From a virus, in the IMG/VR virus record IMGVR_UViG_3300032294_000731, positions 1-40,198 of that record: a stretch of 40,198 nucleotides of DNA; one strand, given 5' to 3'. Under the pieces are notes generated by a model, which saw only the letters and a list, made by a program, of their open reading frames with translations, was not told where the DNA came from and did not search any database. Below are positions 6,005-31,363 of the stretch, piece after piece (position 1 is the stretch's first letter; every line of letters starts with the position of its first letter). A program made the position numbers and the translations under genes.

Positions 6005-6039
6005 TTTGGTTTGATCCCTTGGCCGCCGCCTGCGGCTGA

Positions 6040-6070
6040 GGGGCCCGGCAAATACATATAAAACGGACAT
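6040..6070 (+). repeat. Direct repeat copy 2 (GGGGCCC...AAACGGACAT)
   Basis: This matches 3151-3184: GGGGCCCGGCAAA, an AT-rich middle, then AAAACGGACAT. It marks the left edge of the putative origin. Confidence 0.6.
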
Positions 6071-6157
6071 ATTAGACAAACCTTTTTATATAAAAAACAT
6101 TAAGAACCATTACGAAATATCCCCAGAATCCCTGGATCATATCAAATAAAATATCAT

Positions 6158-6187
6158 TTGTCAAATCAGGTATGTATCTTGTATACT
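6158..6187 (+). promoter_or_regulatory. Sigma-70-type promoter inside the origin
   Basis: TTGTCA (6158-6163), 18-base spacer, TATACT (6182-6187). No gene follows; the transcript would run into two strong hairpins and the iterons. A non-coding or origin-activating transcript is possible. Confidence 0.55.
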
Positions 6188-6193
6188 ATATAT

Positions 6194-6254
6194 AGGGATG
6201 TTTGTCAAGTATGTTTTATATACCGCCGCCGGAAGGCGGCAGGGCCAAAGGCCC
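6194..6254 (+). ncRNA. Possible structured origin transcript
   Basis: Downstream of the 6158-6187 promoter, GCCGCC-GGAA-GGCGGC (6225-6240) forms a perfect 6-bp stem with a GNRA tetraloop, and GGGCC-AAA-GGCCC (6242-6254) forms a second hairpin one base later. The pair is far more GC-rich than its surroundings. It may be a short RNA or a terminator pair; no Rfam family is recognised. Confidence 0.4.
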
Positions 6255-6535
6255 ATAGAATTTCTCAAAAAAAGATTAAGAACCCTCTTCAAAAAATCCC
6301 TGAACGGTTTGGCATTTTTAATTATCCTAAAAAACATTAAGAACCCTTCCCAAAAAATCCCAGAAAGTTTGGGCGGTATACAAACAATATATCCTGAGAT
6401 CATAAAACCACTATAGTAAAACACATTAAGAACAAACAATTATTTTCCCCAAATTATCCAAACATTATATACATTTTTATAGGATTTGTCTACCATATTT
6501 GGATATTTTTGGGGATTTTTTATATGTTTTAAGAC

Positions 6536-6564
6536 TTGACAAATAAGGGTTTTGATGGTAAAAT
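6536..6564 (+). promoter_or_regulatory. Promoter reading towards the DnaA boxes
   Basis: TTGACA (6536-6541), 17-base spacer, TAAAAT (6559-6564). A second TTGACA at 6582 has only a weak -10. Transcription into an AT-rich origin is a common way to aid melting. Confidence 0.55.
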
Positions 6565-6732
6565 CCAGGCTATATTTGGATTTGACAAATTAAAAATTGT
6601 TTGATATGGGGTTTGGGAACTGGGTTGGTTTGAACTGGACATTACGGCCCCATCTGTAAAGATGCTCCATTCCCCACTTTACTCCATTTTCCACCATAAA
6701 ACATCTACGATAATATAATCAGTAATATATTT

Positions 6733-6837
6733 TGTGGATAACTTGTGGATAAATGTCCATTTACTGTGGATAAAGATGTGGATAACTATGTAAAATCTGT
6801 GGACAATATCTCAATATGTGGACAAACCTGTGGATAA
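6733..6837 (-). promoter_or_regulatory. Array of seven DnaA boxes
   Basis: On the - strand five boxes read TTATCCACA (at 6733, 6744, 6765, 6777 and 6829), the perfect high-affinity DnaA box. Two read TTGTCCACA (6798, 6817), the form typical of actinobacteria. All share one orientation. Start-to-start distances are 11, 21, 12, 21, 19 and 12 bases, close to one or two helical turns, so the sites lie on one face of the DNA. This strongly suggests cooperative loading of DnaA. I see no dnaA gene in the window, so host DnaA is the likely ligand. Confidence 0.9.
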
Positions 6838-6863
6838 CTTTATCTATGTGATATCATAATTAC

Positions 6864-6995
6864 ATGGGTATATTAGATAATTTAGAAGCATATATAGATT
6901 TTGAAGAGCCTTACAAGGTAGCCTGTAGCAAGTGTTTAAAGTTGTTTCTTAAGTCTACAGATGAGCCTTTTGTATGTTTGCTTTGTTCTCAGTAA
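6864..6995 (+). CDS. Small zinc-ribbon protein (43 aa)
   Basis: It starts 27 bases after the last DnaA box, with a TATCAT -10-like box just before the ATG, so it is probably leaderless. CSKC near residue 21 and CLLC near the end form a two-knuckle zinc site. Its position next to the origin could link it to replication, but nothing in the sequence shows this. Confidence 0.6.
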   Translation: MGILDNLEAYIDFEEPYKVACSKCLKLFLKSTDEPFVCLLCSQ

Positions 6996-12552: not shown

Positions 12553-12579
12553 TAGTATATAGAAAAGGGGTTGGTTACT

Positions 12580-13347
12580 ATGCCACATAGCGTTAAAGAA
12601 ACAATCACACTAGGTTGGTGTGATGGTGGTACCGTCGAAGGAAGATTCACAAGCGGTATTGCTAATACAATTATTGAAGCACCAAAATTAAAGATTAATA
12701 TTGAAAATACAATTCGTGTAAATGGAAATCAAATTGCACGACAAAGACAGTCACTGTTCGACTACTGGGCTGATCTATCAAAGACAGAATGGTTACTTTG
12801 GGTAGACTCAGACATTGTAATTGACCACAACATTGTTAAAATGCTTTGGGATGTTGCTGACAAGAAGACAAAGCCTATTGTAACTGGAACATATTTTGTT
12901 TCTTCACAAAATGAGCAGACACTTATGGAGCCATTCCCTGCATTGTATGAAGAGACTGGAGATGAGTTTCAGACTAAGGTTATTCATCCTCTACCGCAAA
13001 ACAAAGTAATACCAGTTGACATTGCTGGGTTTGGATTGATGCTAATGCATAGATCAATTATTGATCCAGTTCGCAAGGCTGCCGATGGCTATTCTGTTTT
13101 TGGAGAAAAGCAAAACCCTGGCGCTAAGTTTGTTAGCGAAGATGTTGCATTCTGTCGCTATGTTAAGAAGGCAGGCATACAACTGTATGCACATACTGGA
13201 GCAATTGTTCCACACATGAAGAAGTTTTCATTTGATAACAACTATTACAATATTTATTGGAGTGGTATTGCAGATGGAAAGATTAACAAGCCTGGTAGAA
13301 AACTTATTGACAAGGCTCCAGTAGAAGAAAAAGACGGCGTATCTTAA
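12580..13347 (+). CDS. Phage GT-A glycosyltransferase (255 aa)
   Basis: The start is set by aaaagggg 9 bases upstream. WLLWVDSDIVID at residues 71-82 is the DxD metal/nucleotide-sugar site of GT-A enzymes, preceded by QIARQRQSLFDYWAD, typical of this phage group. Later KFVSEDVAFCRYVKKAG supplies the catalytic acidic region and IVPHMKKFSF a His. Such proteins glycosylate phage DNA, virion proteins or host surface glycans; the substrate cannot be told. It precedes the tRNA cluster and lies 1.3 kb before the other surface-modification genes. Confidence 0.85.
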   Translation: MPHSVKETITLGWCDGGTVEGRFTSGIANTIIEAPKLKINIENTIRVNGNQIARQRQSLFDYWADLSKTEWLLWVDSDIVIDHNIVKMLWDVADKKTKPIVTGTYFVSSQNEQTLMEPFPALYEETGDEFQTKVIHPLPQNKVIPVDIAGFGLMLMHRSIIDPVRKAADGYSVFGEKQNPGAKFVSEDVAFCRYVKKAGIQLYAHTGAIVPHMKKFSFDNNYYNIYWSGIADGKINKPGRKLIDKAPVEEKDGVS

Positions 13348-13354
13348 TTAAGAT

Positions 13355-13427
13355 TGGTCTGTAACTCAGTTGGCAGAGTGGGAAACTGTTAATTTCCAAG
13401 TCGTAGGTTCGAGTCCTACCAGACCAG
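13355..13427 (+). tRNA. tRNA-Asn (anticodon GTT)
   Basis: Acceptor TGGTCTG / CAGACCA plus discriminator G, D-arm ACTC...GAGT, anticodon stem GGAAA / TTTCC with loop CTGTTAA, T-arm GTAGG-TTCGAGT-CCTAC. G73 fits an Asn tRNA. CCA is not encoded. Confidence 0.93.
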
Positions 13428-13431
13428 CGCT

Positions 13432-13502
13432 GCGGATATTGCATAGTGGTAGTGCGTAACCTTGCCAAGGTTAATGTGCGAGTTCGATTCTCGCTATCCG
13501 CT
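13432..13502 (+). tRNA. tRNA-Gly (anticodon GCC)
   Basis: Acceptor GCGGATA / TATCCGC, short D-arm, anticodon stem TAACC / GGTTA with loop TTGCCAA, T-arm CGAG-TTCGATT-CTCG. Five bases after tRNA-Asn and 2 bases before the HNH start codon. Confidence 0.92.
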
Positions 13503-13504
13503 CA

Positions 13505-13876
13505 ATGAAAACATGTAGCAAGTGTAAACTAGAACTAGATGATCTAGAGTTTTCACCATCTTCTGGTGGAAAGTATCTAAGACCTGAGTGTAAAAGTTGT
13601 GCAAAAAAGTTAGCAAAACGTAGAGAAGAATTAAAAAAAGAGTTTGGTTATCCTAGTAGTGACTATGTTTGTCCCATATGTTTAAAAAATGAAGATGAAC
13701 TAAAGGGAACTGGAGGTAATGCAAGTATATGGGTTGTAGATCATAATCATGATACCGATGACTTTAGAGGTCATCTATGTCATAATTGTAATCGTGGTCT
13801 TGGTGTATTCCAAGATAGTATTGAAAGATTAGATAGAGCAATTAAATATTTAAGCACCAGTAGCCAAGTTGGTTAA
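13505..13876 (+). CDS. Endonuclease VII-like HNH nuclease (123 aa)
   Basis: Zinc knuckles C4/C7, C29/C32 and C56/C59 with C92/C95, then VVDHNHDT (77-84) and FRGHLCHNCNRGLGVFQD (87-104), the signature of recombination endonuclease VII (T4 gp49 family; related HNH homing-type copies abound in phages). It begins 2 bases after tRNA-Gly and its last 7 codons plus stop are the first 23 bases of the tRNA-Met-type gene. It may resolve branched DNA or be a free-standing homing nuclease inserted in the tRNA array. No RBS is visible. Confidence 0.88.
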   Translation: MKTCSKCKLELDDLEFSPSSGGKYLRPECKSCAKKLAKRREELKKEFGYPSSDYVCPICLKNEDELKGTGGNASIWVVDHNHDTDDFRGHLCHNCNRGLGVFQDSIERLDRAIKYLSTSSQVG

Positions 13877-13928
13877 GGCACCGAACTCATAATTCGGCTA
13901 TTCGTAGGTTCAAGTCCTACCTGGTGTA
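13854..13928 (+). tRNA. tRNA with anticodon CAT (Met elongator or Ile2)
   Basis: Acceptor GCACCAG / CTGGTGT (G1-T72 pair) plus A73, D-arm GCC...GGC, anticodon stem CCGAA / TTCGG with loop CTCATAA, T-arm GTAGG-TTCAAGT-CCTAC. It lacks the three G-C pairs of initiator tRNA, so it is elongator Met or a lysidine-modified Ile tRNA. Its 5' 23 bases lie inside the HNH gene. Confidence 0.88.
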
Positions 13929-13932
13929 CCAG

Positions 13933-14005
13933 GTCTCTGTGGCGCAACGGACAGCGCAAATGGTTTCTACCCATTAGGTTGCAGGTTCGAATCCTGCCAG
14001 AGACG
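13933..14005 (+). tRNA. tRNA-Arg (anticodon TCT)
   Basis: Acceptor GTCTCTG / CAGAGAC, D-arm GCGC...GCGC, anticodon stem AATGG / CCATT with loop TTTCTAC, T-arm GCAGG-TTCGAAT-CCTGC. It reads AGA, a codon frequent in these phage genes, so it could relieve a host shortage. Confidence 0.93.
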
Positions 14006-14009
14006 CAAG

Positions 14010-14588
14010 TTATATTTTCTTTATATAAATATCTGCGTACATATTTTCTTGCAAAGCAAAAGCAATTACTTCCCAGTCTTTATTCTGATCTAAGAACTCA
14101 CAAACAACTTCAATAACACCATAATCAACACCGTGGTCTTGATCAACAATATAATCATTAAATCCAATTATTCCACCCTCTTCTAATAATGAAAGGGAAT
14201 CCATAAGGTCAGCCTTGCAATGCTCATAATCATGATTAGCATCTATGTATATATAATCAAACTTCTTATTTAGATTAGGTAGTATGTCATGGCTATAGCC
14301 TTTATTAAATGTTATACCGCTCACATTTTTAAATCTATTCTTCACAAAATCTAGATGACCCTTACGATTAAACCTGTTACAGTCTGGCCAATCATGGGCC
14401 TCAAACACGTCTACAAGGTCAATAGAGGCTGGTTTAACCTCTTTGATAAGTACTTCTGCATAGTCACCAGCAAGTGTTCCTATTTCAAGAATTCTAGATC
14501 CTTTGGGAATGTGCTTTGCAAACTCTTCTTTATTCTTAAATAGTTTTGCATTGTTTAGTTGTTCTTGTGAGATTGTTTTAATAGCCAT
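14010..14588 (-). CDS. SAM-dependent methyltransferase, Methyltransf_24 type (192 aa)
   Basis: LEIGTLAGDYA (34-44) is the SAM-binding motif I; IDANHDYEHCKAD (115-127) and GGIIGFNDY (138-146) are characteristic of the Methyltransf_24 / cephalosporin-hydroxylase-like family often found with glycosyltransferases. It could methylate a sugar added by neighbouring enzymes. Divergent from the next gene, with an AAGG site and a TATACT 6 bases before the ATG. A second family member lies back to back. Confidence 0.85.
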   Translation of the reverse strand: MAIKTISQEQLNNAKLFKNKEEFAKHIPKGSRILEIGTLAGDYAEVLIKEVKPASIDLVDVFEAHDWPDCNRFNRKGHLDFVKNRFKNVSGITFNKGYSHDILPNLNKKFDYIYIDANHDYEHCKADLMDSLSLLEEGGIIGFNDYIVDQDHGVDYGVIEVVCEFLDQNKDWEVIAFALQENMYADIYIKKI

Positions 14589-14614
14589 CCTTACAGTATA
14601 TCAGACCTCTAGTG

Positions 14615-14627
14615 TATAATGATATAT
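14615..14627 (+). promoter_or_regulatory. TATAAT box for a leaderless methyltransferase gene
   Basis: TATAAT (14615-14620) lies 7 bases before ATG 14628; the -35 is weak (TTACAG, 18 bases upstream). The 39-base gap serves both divergent methyltransferase genes. Confidence 0.5.
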
Positions 14628-15203
14628 ATGGGGTATCCAAATTGGTTTGAAAAAAATGCAATACATTATTTTAATTTAGTCTTGCCCAAAAGATTTGCAG
14701 GCAAGCCGCTAATAGATTTTTTACAGATTGGCGCATATACTGGTGATGCATCTGAATGGATGATGAAGAATATTATTACACATCCAACTTCATGGCTTAC
14801 AGATGTTGATACGTGGTGTGGCTCCGAAGAAGAAGTACACAAAGAGTTTGACTGGAATCAACTAGAATCTTATTACGATGAAAGAATGTCTAGTTATTCT
14901 AACATATGCAAGATAAAGGGATACTCAGCAAACTTTTTACAGGCTGCACAATCAGAGCACTATGATTTTATTTATATAGATGGCGATCACAGAGCAGACG
15001 AAGTGTATAAAGATGCAACATTTGGATGGAGATGCTTGAAGCCAAACGGTATTATGGCATTTGATGACTATCTATGGGTTCACGACTCTGGTGACATTCA
15101 ACTTTCTCCAAAGCCAGGAATTGATAAGTTCTTAAAAGAATATAAAAATAAATATCATCTTTTAATTATGGATGAGCAAGTATGGATTTCAAAGAATGGA
15201 TAA
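14628..15203 (+). CDS. SAM-dependent methyltransferase, Methyltransf_24 type (191 aa)
   Basis: FLQIGAYTGDAS (31-42) is motif I, IYIDGDHRADEVYKD (115-129) and LKPNGIMAFDDY (137-148) complete the fold. The N-terminal PNWFEKNAIHYF is typical of phage copies. ATG 14628 is preferred over ATG 14619, which overlaps the -10 box. Overlaps the GT25 gene by 8 bases, implying a shared operon and perhaps a shared glycan substrate. Confidence 0.87.
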   Translation: MGYPNWFEKNAIHYFNLVLPKRFAGKPLIDFLQIGAYTGDASEWMMKNIITHPTSWLTDVDTWCGSEEEVHKEFDWNQLESYYDERMSSYSNICKIKGYSANFLQAAQSEHYDFIYIDGDHRADEVYKDATFGWRCLKPNGIMAFDDYLWVHDSGDIQLSPKPGIDKFLKEYKNKYHLLIMDEQVWISKNG

Positions 15204-16671
15204 ATTAAAAAACTTTGGTCCAATATATTTAATTAATCTAAAAAGTCATGACCATAGACTAAAAAATGCAAAGCAAGAATTTAAAAAGTATGGTGTAACT
15301 GACTATACTGTTATTGAGGCTGTTGATGGAAGAAAGAGTGATCTTTCAGAAATTATAGATGGTAAGTATCCTAATCTAAGATCTTCAGAGATTGGGTGTA
15401 TGGCATCTCATATAAAGGCTCTTAAGCATTGGCTTGATACCTCTACAAGTGATTATGCAATTATCATGGAGGATGACTTTAGTTTTGATACCGTCGAACA
15501 TTGGCAGTGGGACTGGGACTACGTTATCCAAAATATCCCTAAAAATGCAGAAATAGTTCAGATGATATTAATTCAAAATGATCCAGTTAAATTTAGCCTA
15601 CACAAGAAAGAAAAGTTTGACCATAAGAGTGTTAAGAACTACGCTTGGTCTACGGCTTGCTACTTAATTAAAAGAAGTTATGCTAAAACTCTTGTTGATT
15701 TACATTACGTTGAAGGTAAGTATAGGTTAGAAAGTTATGGACATAAGAACCAAGCAGCAGACGTTATTCTGTACAACTTGGGCGATGCCTATTCCATACC
15801 CTTATTCACTCATATACTTGACATAAAAAACTCTATAAACAATATTCATAGTGATTTTCATACAAGATCAAAAAATAATATAGATTCTTGGTGGGAAAAA
15901 AATGGAAACAAGTATGATAAAAAACAGTTCTTTGATTTAGCAAGAGGCCTTGCAGAAAAGTCTGTGCAGCCTAAAGGATGCTTTACCATCTTTCATGTTG
16001 ATCAAGACACACCAGAAATGCAAAAGAGAAACCTGTTGGTCAAAAAAGCAATAGATAGACTACAGAAAAACTTTGATGAGTTTTCTACTCCTACAATTAT
16101 AATAAAAAATCAAGATGATGTAAAGAACTTTTATAAAAATGCAAACATTAAGATATATCCAATGGGTCACTTTAATACTGGATGGAAGCCTGGCGAGTTG
16201 GGGATCTGGGCAAGCAACTATACTGCTTGGCAAAACTTTCTTAAGTCTGACTATGACTATATTGTGTTAATGGAAGATGACATTGTTCTTGGAAATGATT
16301 TCAATAATAAGTTAATTAGATATATAGATGAACTTCCAGAAGACTGGGATATTTTTACAGCATACATTCCTTCATTTGGAAATGAGCGGTATGGCAAGAA
16401 TAGAAAATCATTATATGTTGACAAAGAAAACATATGTAGGGTATATCAATCATGGTCATGTCTATGCTATGTTGTTAGCAAGCAGGGTGCAAAGAAGTTG
16501 TTAAAGGAAGTACAGAGCACAGTAAGAAGTCCAATAGATCACTATCTGTTTTATCATAAGGGCATTAACGCATATACAATAAAACTTGAAAAAGGAAATA
16601 TCTGTGACATATATACAACATCTTCTACTGTTCAAAATGCACAAAGATATGACATGACTGGTTATGTCTAA
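15196..16671 (+). CDS. Tandem-domain glycosyltransferase, GT25-like (491 aa)
   Basis: First GT25-like domain: IYLINLKSHDHRLKNA (10-25), EIGCMASHIKALKHWL (65-80) and IIMEDDFSF (89-97) with an EDD motif. A second copy follows: ELGIWASNYTAWQNFL (334-349) and IVLMEDDIVLG (356-366). GT25 enzymes move galactose or related sugars onto LPS-type glycans or proteins. Two complete active-site motifs in one chain suggest two sequential transfers. Start chosen at ATG 15196 within the preceding gene's end; ATG 15172 is an in-frame alternative. Confidence 0.87.
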   Translation: MDKLKNFGPIYLINLKSHDHRLKNAKQEFKKYGVTDYTVIEAVDGRKSDLSEIIDGKYPNLRSSEIGCMASHIKALKHWLDTSTSDYAIIMEDDFSFDTVEHWQWDWDYVIQNIPKNAEIVQMILIQNDPVKFSLHKKEKFDHKSVKNYAWSTACYLIKRSYAKTLVDLHYVEGKYRLESYGHKNQAADVILYNLGDAYSIPLFTHILDIKNSINNIHSDFHTRSKNNIDSWWEKNGNKYDKKQFFDLARGLAEKSVQPKGCFTIFHVDQDTPEMQKRNLLVKKAIDRLQKNFDEFSTPTIIIKNQDDVKNFYKNANIKIYPMGHFNTGWKPGELGIWASNYTAWQNFLKSDYDYIVLMEDDIVLGNDFNNKLIRYIDELPEDWDIFTAYIPSFGNERYGKNRKSLYVDKENICRVYQSWSCLCYVVSKQGAKKLLKEVQSTVRSPIDHYLFYHKGINAYTIKLEKGNICDIYTTSSTVQNAQRYDMTGYV

Positions 16672-17366
16672 ACAAATTTATTATAAAAGTATTCTATTGC
16701 AGATCCTTTAGGCAGTTTGTTTTTATCAATTCCTTCTCTATTTAAGAACTGATTCCAAATCTGTAGTGTATGTGCATCCTTACACTTATCTAAAACTTCT
16801 TGCTTATAGTCTTTATTCCAAATCTTTTTCCATTGCCAGAAGTGAACGGGATAGAACACTTCGGGTGGCTGTGCATATTTTAAAACATTAAACCTTTTTG
16901 CACCTTTAGTTACTAACAGTGGTCCAATTTCTGACCACACTATCTTAGTCTTGTCATACTTTACTGAGTTCTTTATTAAGAATTCTATTAGTTCAGAGTC
17001 TTGTGGCATTCTTAATATACCGTTGGCAAGCCTGTCATCTTCTTCAAAACCAAATAGATAGTCTCCAAAATCCCAATCAGGCCTCAAACATATTGAGTCT
17101 GTATCTGTCCATGTAAGACCTGTTTTTTGTATCATTGTATATCTAAACATGTCTGCAAATGGTCCATATGAATTTTGTACTTTAAAAATTTCAGACTCTG
17201 GAATTATTTTGTTAGCATCTTCTTTTACAACACCATTTGGAACCTCCATATTCATGTCATAAACAAATAAGGTAAACGAATGTTTGTGGTATATAAAAGA
17301 AGCAAGGGCTGTCTGCTCTACCTTGCTTAATGGATTTCCTATCCACAATGATCCAAAATTTGCCAT
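16668..17366 (-). CDS. GT32-like glycosyltransferase (232 aa)
   Basis: ADMFRYTMIQKTG (71-83) and TWTDTDSICLRP (85-96), containing the DxD site, are the hallmarks of GT32/capsular-polysaccharide-type transferases (DXD sugar-binding family). The C-terminal half has SEIGPLLVTKGA and HTLQIWNQF, as in alpha-1,4-galactosyltransferase-like proteins. It converges on the GT25 gene with a 4-base overlap, and is the last gene of the - strand series, beyond the terminator at 17391-17414. Confidence 0.85.
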   Translation of the reverse strand: MANFGSLWIGNPLSKVEQTALASFIYHKHSFTLFVYDMNMEVPNGVVKEDANKIIPESEIFKVQNSYGPFADMFRYTMIQKTGLTWTDTDSICLRPDWDFGDYLFGFEEDDRLANGILRMPQDSELIEFLIKNSVKYDKTKIVWSEIGPLLVTKGAKRFNVLKYAQPPEVFYPVHFWQWKKIWNKDYKQEVLDKCKDAHTLQIWNQFLNREGIDKNKLPKGSAIEYFYNKFV

Positions 17367-17385
17367 ATATACATCCTATCATAAT

Positions 17386-17414
17386 AGAAAAGCCAGCCCA
17401 TTTCTAGGCTGGCT
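17386..17414 (-). terminator. Intrinsic terminator of the - strand operon
   Basis: AGCCAGCC / GGCTGGCT, an 8-bp perfect stem with an 8-base loop. Read on the - strand it is followed by TTTTCTATT. It ends transcripts coming from the 17431-17697 gene. Confidence 0.8.
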
Positions 17415-17430
17415 AAACTATTTATGCCGC

Positions 17431-17697
17431 TTACTTCTTGTCTGCTGGCTTCTTTGCAGCCTTCTTCTTAACTACCTTTGCATCCTTTAGCGCTGCTGCA
17501 ACATCTGCTTCAGCAGGCATACGTCCAAATGCCTTGTCGTTAGGATTGACTGCTCTCAATACTACTGGCACAATTGCTCCAAGTAGTGAGTAAGCAAGTG
17601 TCTCTGGATCTGTTACTCCAGATGCGTACATTGCTGTTGCTGCACCAAGAACTGATCGTCCGTATGATGCTAACATATTCTTCATTGCTTCGTTCAT
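17431..17697 (-). CDS. Small membrane-associated protein with Ala/Lys tail (88 aa)
   Basis: Start at ATG 17697 behind aggaggaa. MLASYGRSVLGAATAMYASG and LLGAIVPVVLRAVNPND are hydrophobic helices; the tail is KKKAAKKPADKK-like. Proteins like this occur in actinophage structural or lysis regions and some are annotated as membrane proteins. A holin is possible but not shown. Confidence 0.65.
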   Translation of the reverse strand: MNEAMKNMLASYGRSVLGAATAMYASGVTDPETLAYSLLGAIVPVVLRAVNPNDKAFGRMPAEADVAAALKDAKVVKKKAAKKPADKK

Positions 17698-17705
17698 TAT
17701 TCCTC

Positions 17706-17864
17706 CTAGGATATAACTTTGATTAGTATAGCGTAACCAGCCCATAGGCCTATAATACCTGCTACCCCTGCAAAAACAGGTGGTGCTGGAACTGGTAATT
17801 TGAATGCAGCAAAAACTAAGCCGCATCCAAAACCTGTTAGTACTGACAGTACAATGTCTTTCAT
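17706..17864 (-). CDS. XapX-family (DUF1427) membrane protein (52 aa)
   Basis: GFGCGLVFAAFKLPVPAPPVFAG then GIIGLWAGYAI matches the XapX domain: two short membrane helices joined by a LPxPAPP turn. Known bacterial members are of unclear function. Ribosome site gggggat before the ATG; the start overlaps the 17861-18025 stop by ATGA. Confidence 0.8.
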   Translation of the reverse strand: MKDIVLSVLTGFGCGLVFAAFKLPVPAPPVFAGVAGIIGLWAGYAILIKVIS

Positions 17865-18025
17865 CTATCCCCCACTATATATTCTCTATGATGATTTTCA
17901 CAGAAGTCTACGTATCTTGTTTCTGTCATTGCAAGTATTTTTGCCTCTTCAATGCATTCTTCTATTTCACAAACAATATAATCATATCTAATGCTATCTT
18001 CAAACTTTTTTATTTTAGGGTACAT
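17861..18025 (-). CDS. Hypothetical small protein (54 aa)
   Basis: A TAATG start shared with the preceding stop and an ATGA at its end place it inside the operon. Sequence YDYIVCEIEECIEEAKILAMTE is helical; the tail DFCENHHREY has Cys/His that might bind metal. Unknown function. Confidence 0.6.
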   Translation of the reverse strand: MYPKIKKFEDSIRYDYIVCEIEECIEEAKILAMTETRYVDFCENHHREYIVGDR

Positions 18026-18234
18026 TATTCTTTCATCCCATGATCTTGGCTTGGATTCTCAGGATGATCTATTGGTGTTGGTGCTGTACAAAAAGCACCG
18101 CAATCATTGCATTGCATATCTAGGTGATACATGCCAACCATATATGTATTTGGATCAAAAGAGACTAATGCTCTAAAAAGCGTACCGACACAACTTGGAC
18201 ACTCACAAGTTGGAATTCCTCTAGCGTCTATCAT
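18025..18234 (-). CDS. Zinc-binding protein (69 aa)
   Basis: CECPSCVG (C10, C12, C15) and a later CNDCGAFC give two zinc knuckles around a beta segment (YMVGMYHLDMQC). The tail is Pro/His-rich. Overlaps the upstream gene by 14 bases. Function unknown. Confidence 0.65.
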   Translation of the reverse strand: MIDARGIPTCECPSCVGTLFRALVSFDPNTYMVGMYHLDMQCNDCGAFCTAPTPIDHPENPSQDHGMKE

Positions 18235-18646
18235 CGACTTCCTCTGGAAGTAACTTTTTTAAATCTTTATATGCAGCAGAAATCTTTTTCATAGAATGGT
18301 AGTGTGGGTATGCATCTCCAACAACGCCATATTCATCAAAGTATATTATCTCTGGCTCAATATCTCTTATAAAATTTTCTAATTGTGTTTGAACATCTTC
18401 AATATATTCAAATGCCCAATCACGAGAATCAGAAAGAAACTTAATAAAGTTTTCTTTATGTATGTCCTGGTCTTCTTTGCTTACTGGTGACTGAAGGCTT
18501 GCCTCAAATGCCTCACGCATTGTAGCGTTTAGCATAACCATTTGTGCAAAAGCCTTGCTAACAACCTCTAGTCTTTTAAGAACGGCATAGTATGCAATAG
18601 CAAAAGACATGGCGAATAGGCTGGTTACTATAATAGCAATTCTCAT
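18221..18646 (-). CDS. Membrane-anchored helical protein (141 aa)
   Basis: An N-terminal membrane span (MRIAIIVTSLFAMSFAIAYYAVL) is followed by a long charged helical domain. Possibly a spanin-like or signalling protein, but no motif supports either. It lies immediately after the GlcNAc transferase-like gene (1-base gap). Confidence 0.65.
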   Translation of the reverse strand: MRIAIIVTSLFAMSFAIAYYAVLKRLEVVSKAFAQMVMLNATMREAFEASLQSPVSKEDQDIHKENFIKFLSDSRDWAFEYIEDVQTQLENFIRDIEPEIIYFDEYGVVGDAYPHYHSMKKISAAYKDLKKLLPEEVDDRR

Positions 18647-18647
18647 A

Positions 18648-19580
18648 CTATTCCTTTTCTCTCACTACTATTGTATCACTACTAGCATTATACATTTTTT
18701 TAAAGTCTATCCCTGTTATTTTTTCGTATTCTTCTATGCTTCTTTTTGTGCCTACTCCATAGATACCGCTTTCAATACCACAAAAAATACGCTTTTGTTT
18801 TTCTTTAGACAGCACCTCTAGTTCTTTCCACGAAATATCTCTTAGGTTCCTGTCTTTCCATATTTTGCTGTATCCCTCACGGGTATAAAAATGATAAACA
18901 ATCTTAACACAAGGAGAATATATGTCCCACCCTCTAGTCCACGCTCTTATTGCAAAGCATAACTCTTCACCAAAGAAACTAATCTCTGGATCATATGGGA
19001 TTTCTTTTACAATATCTCCAGTAGTAAAAATAAATCCTGCAAGTATTGTGGTTGATTCTTCTGGAGTATGCTTATTAGATAACTCAACTCTCTCTGCAGT
19101 CCAATCACCACGCTTTGTAAGCATAGGCTTTTGTTTTGTGGGATATGGCAACTGTTGCTTTGATTTTTTTATTATACTTATTTGTTTATTTGGTTCTACA
19201 TAAAATGGTGGAGGAAAGTGTGACAAGATAATCTTGTTATTCTTTGATATCTCTTGTGCCTTTTTATGTTGCTCAATACATAACAAGTCCCAATCTTTTT
19301 CAAATATAGTATGTGAATCAATTTGTAAGAAATAGTCTTGTCCAGAATACATTGGCATAATCTGTGCCCTGGCATAGCCAGCACCTCTTGCCATCTTTGG
19401 GTGTATCTTTCCCAGTGTAAGATTGGGAACCCATGATAGATCTGGTTCATACTTGTCAAACTCTTGCAGGAAAACACCAAAGTATAGTTCTTCTGGGTTG
19501 GCAGCATTATCTATAGCAGAATGAATTGTTCTTTCTAGTTCAGGGTCTCTATAACTAGCAACGGAGATAAAGATTGTCAC
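18648..19580 (-). CDS. GlcNAc-transferase-like glycosyltransferase (310 aa)
   Basis: It begins IFISVASYRDPELERTI, then ARGAGYARAQ (64-73) and FLQIDSHTIF (84-93), the signature of the GlcNAc (Skp1-type, PF11397) family. FTTGDIVKEIPYDPEISFFGEELCFAIRAWTRGWDIYSP completes the fold. These enzymes attach GlcNAc to hydroxyproline or related acceptors; phage copies probably modify surface glycans or virion proteins. Full length for a phage member. Confidence 0.85.
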   Translation of the reverse strand: MTIFISVASYRDPELERTIHSAIDNAANPEELYFGVFLQEFDKYEPDLSWVPNLTLGKIHPKMARGAGYARAQIMPMYSGQDYFLQIDSHTIFEKDWDLLCIEQHKKAQEISKNNKIILSHFPPPFYVEPNKQISIIKKSKQQLPYPTKQKPMLTKRGDWTAERVELSNKHTPEESTTILAGFIFTTGDIVKEIPYDPEISFFGEELCFAIRAWTRGWDIYSPCVKIVYHFYTREGYSKIWKDRNLRDISWKELEVLSKEKQKRIFCGIESGIYGVGTKRSIEEYEKITGIDFKKMYNASSDTIVVREKE

Positions 19581-29233: not shown

Positions 29234-31363
29234 TTATCTCCTCATTCCAATTAGAGTACTCGCAATTTGTGAAACAATCACAACTGGAATAATTACTTCT
29301 TGGGCTTTTTCTCTCTGATCATCTGTCATATCCATACCTAACTCAGAGAAATTAGATAGGAGTTCTAGTGGGTCTACATTGAATACAGCCCCAAGTGGGT
29401 CTGCTAAAAATGCTTCTGTTTGTACTTCTGTTACAGCATCTGCTAATGTAAATGGCATTGGGGTATCTCCTGCAGTCTCTGCTCTGTCATTAAATTCAAC
29501 AAACGCTTCTGCAAGTGCTGGATTAGATTTCATCTGCTCTGCAATCTGTGCAACCTCTGAAGGTTTAATACCAAGGTCTTCTGCAACCTCTGCCTTTGCT
29601 TCTTGAGTAAGGGATCTAAGGGTTTGGCTTACTGCTGTTATTTGTTCAGCAGAAAGTGTAACTAACTTATTATCCTTGCTTGTAAGGTTAGCAATAACAT
29701 TAGATAAATCTTGTTCTGTTCCAGTTCCTTTTTCAGGAACGAGTGCTGCTAATTCCTCATCTTTAATTTCTACATCTGGCTCAGTCCATGGATTTTCTTC
29801 TGGTGTAGGCTCTGGTCCAGGTTCTGGCGTAGGTTCTGGAGTTGGTTCATCAGTTGGCTCCACGACTGGCTCATCTGTTGGCTCTGGATCTGGAGTAATC
29901 TCTAGTGTGGGTTCTGGCGTAGGGTCAGGCGTAGGGTCTACTGTAGGCTCTGGAGAAGGCTTTGGGGTGGGCTCTTGTGTTGGTTCCTCTGTTGGCTCAA
30001 CGCTTGGTTCTGGAGAAGGCTCTGGTGTAGGTTCAACTGTAGCCTCTGGAGTTGGTTCTGGTTGTGGCATATTTGCAAGTGCAGTAGCAATAGCAGCAGC
30101 AATTCTCTGTTTTTCTTCAAAATCAAATTGACTAACATACTCTTCTTCAGCGGTAGCGATTGAAATATTCATATCACTAATTGCATCATTATAATCTTCA
30201 ATGGCATCATTTTTTTCATCTAATGCATCTTGAGTATTATCTTGTGCAGTTTCGTAGGCATTTTGTGCATTATTTTTATTAGTATTAGCAGTTGTTGATG
30301 CACTGTTATATGTATCTAACTTTGCAAGTTCCGTGTTATAAACAGATAACTTATCATTATAAGTTGCTAATGCAGATGTTCTTGTTGCAAGTGCCTGGTT
30401 ATAAGCATTTATTTGTTCTTGTGTTGGTCCTGTACCAGAAGAAAATGTATTAAGATTACAACTAAAGTTCTGTCCCCATACTCGTGGGTTTCCAGCATAG
30501 TCGCATCCTGCTCCAGTCCATCCTCCAGGAATTGCCCATCCAAGATGATAGTCTCCAGGACCTCCGCCGTTATACCACCAAATTTCTACACCCAATGTTT
30601 TGTCTTCACTAACATCATATACTGGTGAATAATCACTCCAAGTAGTGCCTTGCTCTTGCCAGTTATCAACTGCAAGAACTCCGTCTACATACATTCTAAA
30701 TCCATCATCTGTATATCCTGCAAAATATGTTGTTGTAAACCATGATGGGACAGTAATCGTTCCAGTAAATTTAACTATAAAATTTTCATACCTGTTGCCA
30801 CAAACTGGAAGATACATAGAGTTTGAGTTCCAAGTGCCAGAACAAAGCACAGATCCTGGGGTAGCGACATTTCCTTGTCTGACAAGAGTATAGACCGTAT
30901 AGGCTAACCCTGTTCCTCCAGCAGCCTGCATATTAGACTGTGTGGTTTGAAGATTAATATTGGCTATATTTAATGCTTCTTGAGCATTGTTTCTATTTGT
31001 TAATGCGGTTGAAACTATTGGGGTTTGATCATCTACCGCTTTTTGCGCTGCATTTAATAATGATATTTTATTGTTGAGATTAGATAGGGCTACTGATTCT
31101 GCATCTACTGCATCTAGATAGTCTTCTTCTGCTGATATCTTGTTGTCCCTAACATTTACGGCTGTCTCATACTTGTCCTGTGCTACATCAATAAGTGAGA
31201 CTAATTCGGCACTATCATTAAGGTCTGAAACCTTCTCATTTAGGGCCTCTATTCTTTGTGCACCTATTGTTATGGGGTCGTCAGAATGTGCTCCTAGTGG
31301 CGCTATAAATAGCCATCCAAATGCAAGAATAAAAACTGTAGATATACGCAAGAGTTTTTTCAA
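29234..31363 (-). CDS. Large secreted protein: coiled coils, PA14-like domain, Pro/Glu/Thr repeat (709 aa)
   Basis: Signal peptide about 1-27 (LLRISTVFILAFGWLFIAPLGAHS). Coiled coil about 30-150; a PA14-like carbohydrate-binding domain about 155-320 (AGYTDDGFRMYVDGVLAVDN, GVEIWWYNGGGPGDYHLGW) with several Cys; a second coiled coil about 325-430; a PEPTPEP-type repeat about 435-530; and a hydrophobic C-terminal end (VIIPVVIVSQIASTLIG). Start is TTG behind aggaga. It is exported, so it likely acts on or outside the host envelope, possibly as an adhesin or exclusion factor. Confidence 0.8.
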   Translation of the reverse strand: MKKLLRISTVFILAFGWLFIAPLGAHSDDPITIGAQRIEALNEKVSDLNDSAELVSLIDVAQDKYETAVNVRDNKISAEEDYLDAVDAESVALSNLNNKISLLNAAQKAVDDQTPIVSTALTNRNNAQEALNIANINLQTTQSNMQAAGGTGLAYTVYTLVRQGNVATPGSVLCSGTWNSNSMYLPVCGNRYENFIVKFTGTITVPSWFTTTYFAGYTDDGFRMYVDGVLAVDNWQEQGTTWSDYSPVYDVSEDKTLGVEIWWYNGGGPGDYHLGWAIPGGWTGAGCDYAGNPRVWGQNFSCNLNTFSSGTGPTQEQINAYNQALATRTSALATYNDKLSVYNTELAKLDTYNSASTTANTNKNNAQNAYETAQDNTQDALDEKNDAIEDYNDAISDMNISIATAEEEYVSQFDFEEKQRIAAAIATALANMPQPEPTPEATVEPTPEPSPEPSVEPTEEPTQEPTPKPSPEPTVDPTPDPTPEPTLEITPDPEPTDEPVVEPTDEPTPEPTPEPGPEPTPEENPWTEPDVEIKDEELAALVPEKGTGTEQDLSNVIANLTSKDNKLVTLSAEQITAVSQTLRSLTQEAKAEVAEDLGIKPSEVAQIAEQMKSNPALAEAFVEFNDRAETAGDTPMPFTLADAVTEVQTEAFLADPLGAVFNVDPLELLSNFSELGMDMTDDQREKAQEVIIPVVIVSQIASTLIGMRR

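Follow-up and report, generated by a model that had tools for sequence, protein, structure and literature searches.

The start of replication in large phages with their own polymerase is mostly unknown, and the locus described here raises the question of how such a phage might make use of the initiator of its host. The DNA analysed (the window) is a stretch of 40,198 nucleotides from the IMG/VR collection and represents a 40-kb fragment of a phage genome of ~105 kb. At positions 6733 to 6837 it holds seven DnaA boxes with near-helical spacing, all on the minus strand, of which five read TTATCCACA and two TTGTCCACA. Judged from the sequence, this array suggests that the phage and its relatives start DNA copying with the host initiator despite bringing most of their own replication machinery.

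A motif scan of the window placed the minus-strand box starts at 6733, 6744, 6765, 6777, 6798, 6817 and 6829, giving start-to-start spacings of 11, 21, 12, 21, 19 and 12 bp, in full agreement with a preliminary description of this DNA. That description had also called a chance origin of the cluster negligible, and the calculation bears this out: for seven boxes in 105 bp (lambda = 0.017) the Poisson P was ~1e-16, to be multiplied by ~8e4 possible positions. Since the whole window contained 21 box matches with at most one mismatch where 14.5 were expected, which is a mild excess, the extraordinary feature is the clustering of the boxes. For their proposed placement on one face of the helix, the window alone gave moderate evidence (R = 0.88 at 10.5 bp; P = 0.01, or 0.03 with the period scanned), and the strong evidence for phasing comes from the relatives, whose spacings lie near multiples of 11 bp. 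Boxes 1 and 2 (6733 to 6752, minus strand), with starts 11 bp apart, form the core pair and are the best-conserved part of the array, a spacing of 11 or 12 being present in nearly all box-bearing relatives.

Relatives of the phage were gathered by means of RecA and DUF932, and they include circular-complete genomes of ~105 kb. Terminase, RecA, DnaE, RuvC, DUF932 and other proteins were ~37-53% identical to those of Streptomyces phage NootNoot (Stanwilliamsviridae) and were encoded in collinear order; going by these proteins, the window phage is a distant cousin of the Streptomyces Stanwilliamsviridae. The presence of a WhiB gene indicates an actinobacterial host, and this freshwater phage group probably infects actinobacteria. 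The relatives encode a DnaB-type helicase, primase, SSB, DnaE and RecA, and searches of them for Bac_DnaA, for the box-binding domain Bac_DnaA_C (DnaA domain IV) and for a tyrosine integrase returned nothing. No Rep initiator gene was present among the few array neighbours scanned. The preliminary description had further named DNA polymerase III alpha, RecA, SSB and terminase genes as neighbours of the boxes; they are not near, with SSB at 4.4 kb, terminase at ~26 kb, RecA at ~31 kb and a truncated DnaE at ~32 kb. Directly flanking the array are short genes without known function and one for a MobA-like nucleotidyltransferase. Elsewhere in the window, a block of genes judged by eye to be probably glycosyltransferase- and methyltransferase-like (12571 to 19580) encloses a tRNA cluster for Asn, Gly, Met and Arg (13355 to 14006), and tandem 12/48-bp repeats at 29798 to 30061 code for Pro/Thr/Glu-rich repeats in a protein of 709 aa with a signal-like N terminus.

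Conservation in related phages, which the preliminary description had proposed as a check on the boxes, was assessed in 66 loci anchored on DUF932, each covered for 4.7 kb or more downstream. In 60 of these the box cluster was kept, with the same place, strand and near-helical spacing; it lay mostly 3.2-4.6 kb, and never more than 5.4 kb, downstream of DUF932. Typically, the core consisted of three perfect TTATCCACA boxes with spacings of 11/12 and 32-34; the spacing variants 21, 44-45 and 54-56 retained helical phase, and in the alignment of relatives insertions of about one or two helical turns between boxes preserved it. Box distances in 49 dereplicated loci favoured multiples of 11 bp (R = 0.70), and the 270-bp core of these loci was 79 times richer in exact boxes than the remaining sequence. 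Although the search tolerated one mismatch, the core boxes of the relatives were nearly all perfect. The number of boxes per locus ranged from 0 to 7, with the window the richest of the set and its nearest relative carrying five.

The array is part of a non-coding region of ~0.86 kb (6005 to 6863) that holds the whole locus. On the plus strand, iterons at 6091 to 6451 comprise ACATTAAGAACC-type repeats (ATTAAGA at 6099, 6275, 6336 and 6425; ATTACGA in relatives) together with GGTTTG motifs. A sigma-70-like promoter read from the sequence, TTGACA-17-TAAAAT (6536 to 6564, plus strand), is directed at the boxes and has TTGACA/TATAAT counterparts in relatives. It is followed on the same strand by a block with the consensus ATTACG..CC..TCT.TAAA.G.GCTC among relatives (6641 to 6663) and, at 6664 to 6694, by a TCCAC(T) triple repeat that is conserved in the group and degenerate in the window; it is oriented opposite to the DnaA boxes and has its units ~10 bp apart in relatives. 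An AT-rich weak-duplex element, the candidate DNA unwinding element, occupies 6700 to 6732 on the 3' side of box 1 and contains ATCAGTAA at 6718-6725, the columns of which were invariant in the alignment of relatives. Iterons and AT-rich DNA thus do accompany the boxes, as had been claimed. The consensus of the relatives runs, from the promoter side, through GGTTTG repeats, the TTGACA/TATAAT-like promoter, ATTACG..CC..TCT.TAAAAG.GCTC, three TCCAC(T) repeats and an AT-rich stretch ending in ATCAGTAAgATttat to box 1, box 2 and the further boxes. Calculated nearest-neighbour stability, averaged over 47 relatives, centred the least stable duplex 15 bp before box 1, and it is on this same side of box 1 that the unwinding elements of oriC are located.

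The density of AGGTTTG peaked genome-wide at the array locus in all three complete relatives, as did that of ATTACGA, and the TTTACGA repeat of NootNoot was densest in the gap homologous to the array locus. An operator role of AGGTTTG in promoter spacers was rejected, as no more than 1-2 of the 15-20 promoter-like sites in each genome had the motif, and so was a known structured RNA at the locus, for which there was only a sub-threshold chance match. DnaA-trios formed no consistent run: the mean run was 1.8 against 1.0 in shuffles, and three or more trios occurred in only 2 of 49 loci.

With an ordered DnaA-box cluster, a calculated AT-rich element 3' of the proximal box and conservation, the locus has three of the features expected of an oriC-type origin, and iterons beside AT-rich DNA and DnaA boxes are a feature that it has in common with iteron origins of the P1 oriR type. 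We consider the odds to be slightly in favour of region 6005-6863 being a phage replication origin, or an origin initiation module, with the array as candidate site for host DnaA. The sites, their conservation and phasing, the calculated weak duplex, the iterons and a phage gene set with no recognisable DnaA are direct observations; from them we infer DnaA binding, melting, helicase loading and a replication start at the array. Host DnaA would load cooperatively onto boxes facing one side of the helix, and a DnaA filament growing out from box 1 would reach the AT-rich element next to it and melt this DNA, after which the phage DnaB-type helicase, primase, SSB and DnaE polymerase would take over. 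The upstream iterons may be the target of a phage protein, and transcription from the promoter directed at the array may assist initiation. A change of GC skew at ~6.8 kb, which the preliminary description had expected of an origin, did not appear: in three complete relatives the cumulative skew turned elsewhere. Such skew is weak evidence in a phage, and we rejected it as an origin marker because its turns mostly followed gene strand and not the array.

The main argument against an essential DnaA-dependent origin comes from the six of 66 relatives that lack boxes at the locus (L298, L310, L313, L320, L326 and L328), five of which keep iterons, TCCAC repeats and ATCAGTAA. The boxes are therefore dispensable at least in those lineages, and since the neighbouring elements are retained, we regard the array as a module for recruiting DnaA, set on an origin of iterons and AT-rich DNA and differing in importance between phage lineages. 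The original claim of a replication start that depends on host DnaA is thus supported in part: a phased, origin-like array stands beside a weak duplex and iterons, and the phages concerned encode a replisome and no DnaA, but strict dependence throughout the group is doubtful given these relatives. At the expected box site, several box-less relatives (among L298, L310, L313, L326 and L328, ~4.0-4.3 kb after DUF932, and L320) carried CAAACC repeats.

Clusters of DnaA boxes can also serve to bind and titrate or to recharge DnaA, as do datA and DARS (PMC5835720), to which the array is alike in being a DnaA-box cluster away from dnaA. It might similarly act as a decoy, titrating host DnaA in the manner of datA, blocking new rounds of host chromosome replication and freeing nucleotides and replisome parts, with phage replication beginning elsewhere or through an iteron-binding phage protein. 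We hold this to be unlikely. The boxes would suit such a role in being near-perfect, apparently high-affinity-type sites that vary in number and can disappear from an otherwise retained locus, and the iteron/AT-rich core seems self-sufficient in the box-less relatives. Yet a decoy needs neither a fixed position nor an 11/12-bp pair beside the least stable DNA, and both are conserved; in the window group, unlike in datA and DARS, the array adjoins a conserved weak duplex and iterons.

We further considered a role in transcription control, in which DnaA bound to the boxes would repress or time a promoter of the neighbouring genes. The direction of the sigma-70-like promoter would be in keeping with this, as would the position of a small plus-strand ORF (6864 to 6995, read from the sequence; 43 aa, Cys-rich, MGILDNLEAYIDF...) that begins 26 bp past box 7. 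This ORF has a near-identical copy in one relative (L265) and is absent from this position in most others. Relatives also have a further pair of perfect boxes, inverted and spaced 12 bp, beside promoter-like sequence (72,932-72,952 in G003; 6,671-6,691 in G005); it lies outside the window on the far side of DUF932, in complete relatives ~10 kb from the array, and some box-less relatives retain it as well (11 or 12 bp apart). The genes after the array are unrelated between phages, and with mechanical ORF choice what follows it was on the plus strand at 27, on the minus strand at 20 and absent at 2 of 49 loci. Because downstream content thus varies in identity and strand, it is the cis element itself that is conserved, which argues against control of one particular gene and makes this explanation improbable.

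The homologous gap in the Streptomyces BE1 phages bears on a third possibility. NootNoot, Daubenski and Bmoc (Samistivirus relatives) carry an inverted TTATCCACA pair there, 22-24 bp apart, with a mismatch in one box of Bmoc; the records for these phages are NC_042009.1 (120,207-120,300), NC_055822.1 and NC_055842.1. This pair lies 93-114 bp short of the point where the terminal repeat begins. The repeat measures 10.8 kb in NootNoot, and repeats of ~11 kb are reported for BE1 phages (PMC5764925). Streptomyces phage Coruscant had no box in the homologous gap. This terminal-repeat gap of the Stanwilliamsviridae is like the window locus in its homologous position, with the DUF932 block on one side, in its TTATCCACA boxes and in being the densest site of a TTACGA-type repeat (in NootNoot), and unlike it in holding an inverted pair only, or none in Coruscant, in place of a same-strand array. 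That the region lies at the edge of a long terminal repeat, with a role for the boxes in end processing or in packaging coupled to replication, is suggested by the place of the pair before the repeat in three phages and by collinear gene order, but we think it improbable, given that the freshwater complete records are circular assemblies, that contig ends do not pile up at one site, that Coruscant has a terminal repeat and no boxes, and that packaging by itself, while compatible with an origin, leaves the DnaA specificity unexplained. A terminal repeat in the freshwater group was also sought through contig-end pile-up or long end repeats, and neither was seen.

A replication origin recruiting host DnaA, which remains the preferred reading, has counterparts in known systems. 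The tandem 11/12 pair is a hallmark of oriC: it was present in 44 of 396 genomes of the bacterial phylum sampled, with none for the mirror control, and stood beside dnaA in both genomes checked. The core spacing of the array was also found in many bacterial chromosomes. With the bacterial oriC and its basal unwinding system the array shares tandem, same-strand, phased TTATCCACA boxes 11/12 bp apart and a weak duplex 3' of box 1; it differs in residing on a phage genome without dnaA, in its iterons and promoter, and in showing no consistent DnaA-trio run. Small genomes of the phylum gave no clear oriC for a comparison with the host; upstream of dnaA they had nothing beyond inverted pairs with a 23-bp spacing. 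These pairs (L541, L542, L544, L548 and L549) were exactly 23 bp apart, lay ~1.4-2.2 kb from the DnaA box-binding domain and resembled the pair of the Streptomyces phages.

Iteron origins such as phage P1 oriR, F, R1 and pSC101 combine iterons, AT-rich DNA and DnaA boxes in mobile replicons that use host DnaA. The window group has the same three components, and is set apart by a longer, same-strand, phased array and by the lack of a recognised linked Rep gene among the few neighbours scanned; it also encodes its own helicase, primase and polymerase, and no tyrosine integrase was found. RepA and the iterons have been described for P1 (PMC7157519) and DnaA boxes for R1 (PMC5883639). By its presumed mechanism, the array belongs with these known DnaA-box and iteron origins, P1 oriR and oriC.

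The preliminary description regarded a tie to host DnaA as unusual for a phage with its own replicase; the idea that such an array is exceptional among phages found no support. Three boxes on one strand, separated by short gaps, occurred in at least 119 other viral contigs, with 3 to 24 boxes per array, against 7 matches in the whole collection for a mirror pattern, which accepted T only at a position where the forward pattern took T or C. Among the matches listed, the arrays shared the spacings 11/12/21/22, nearly all array-bearing contigs were without detectable homology to window proteins, and none had a DnaA signature near the array, versus 32 of 120 chromosomal matches of a similar pattern. 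Phased DnaA-box arrays thus look widespread among phages and little described, rather than unusual. Our search of the open literature found no description of them as a general phage feature; DnaA boxes are indicated in the Ori-Finder prediction shown for one phage (PMC11512268).

We tentatively suggest, as a possibility that falls short of an even chance, that minimal-oriC-like arrays are a widespread, independently acquired and portable origin module, gained and lost atop an iteron origin, by which replisome-bearing phages without DnaA capture the host initiator. Since the arrays occur in unrelated viral contigs, the question can be tested at large scale. If the site works as proposed, these phages would be tied to the cell-cycle initiator of the host (the DnaA-ATP level), the origins of uncultured viruses could be found from their sequence, and sister phages with and without boxes would offer a natural comparison of DnaA-dependent and DnaA-independent initiation. 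It is the apparent generality of the arrays, together with this natural set of relatives, that raises their interest. Three of the array-bearing contigs (L050, L022 and L029, with arrays near 12.9, 6.1 and 1.6 kb) were phages with SU10/P22-like portal and terminase genes, and their arrays lay within ~1-2 kb of the terminase large subunit, which hints at a link to the packaging region.
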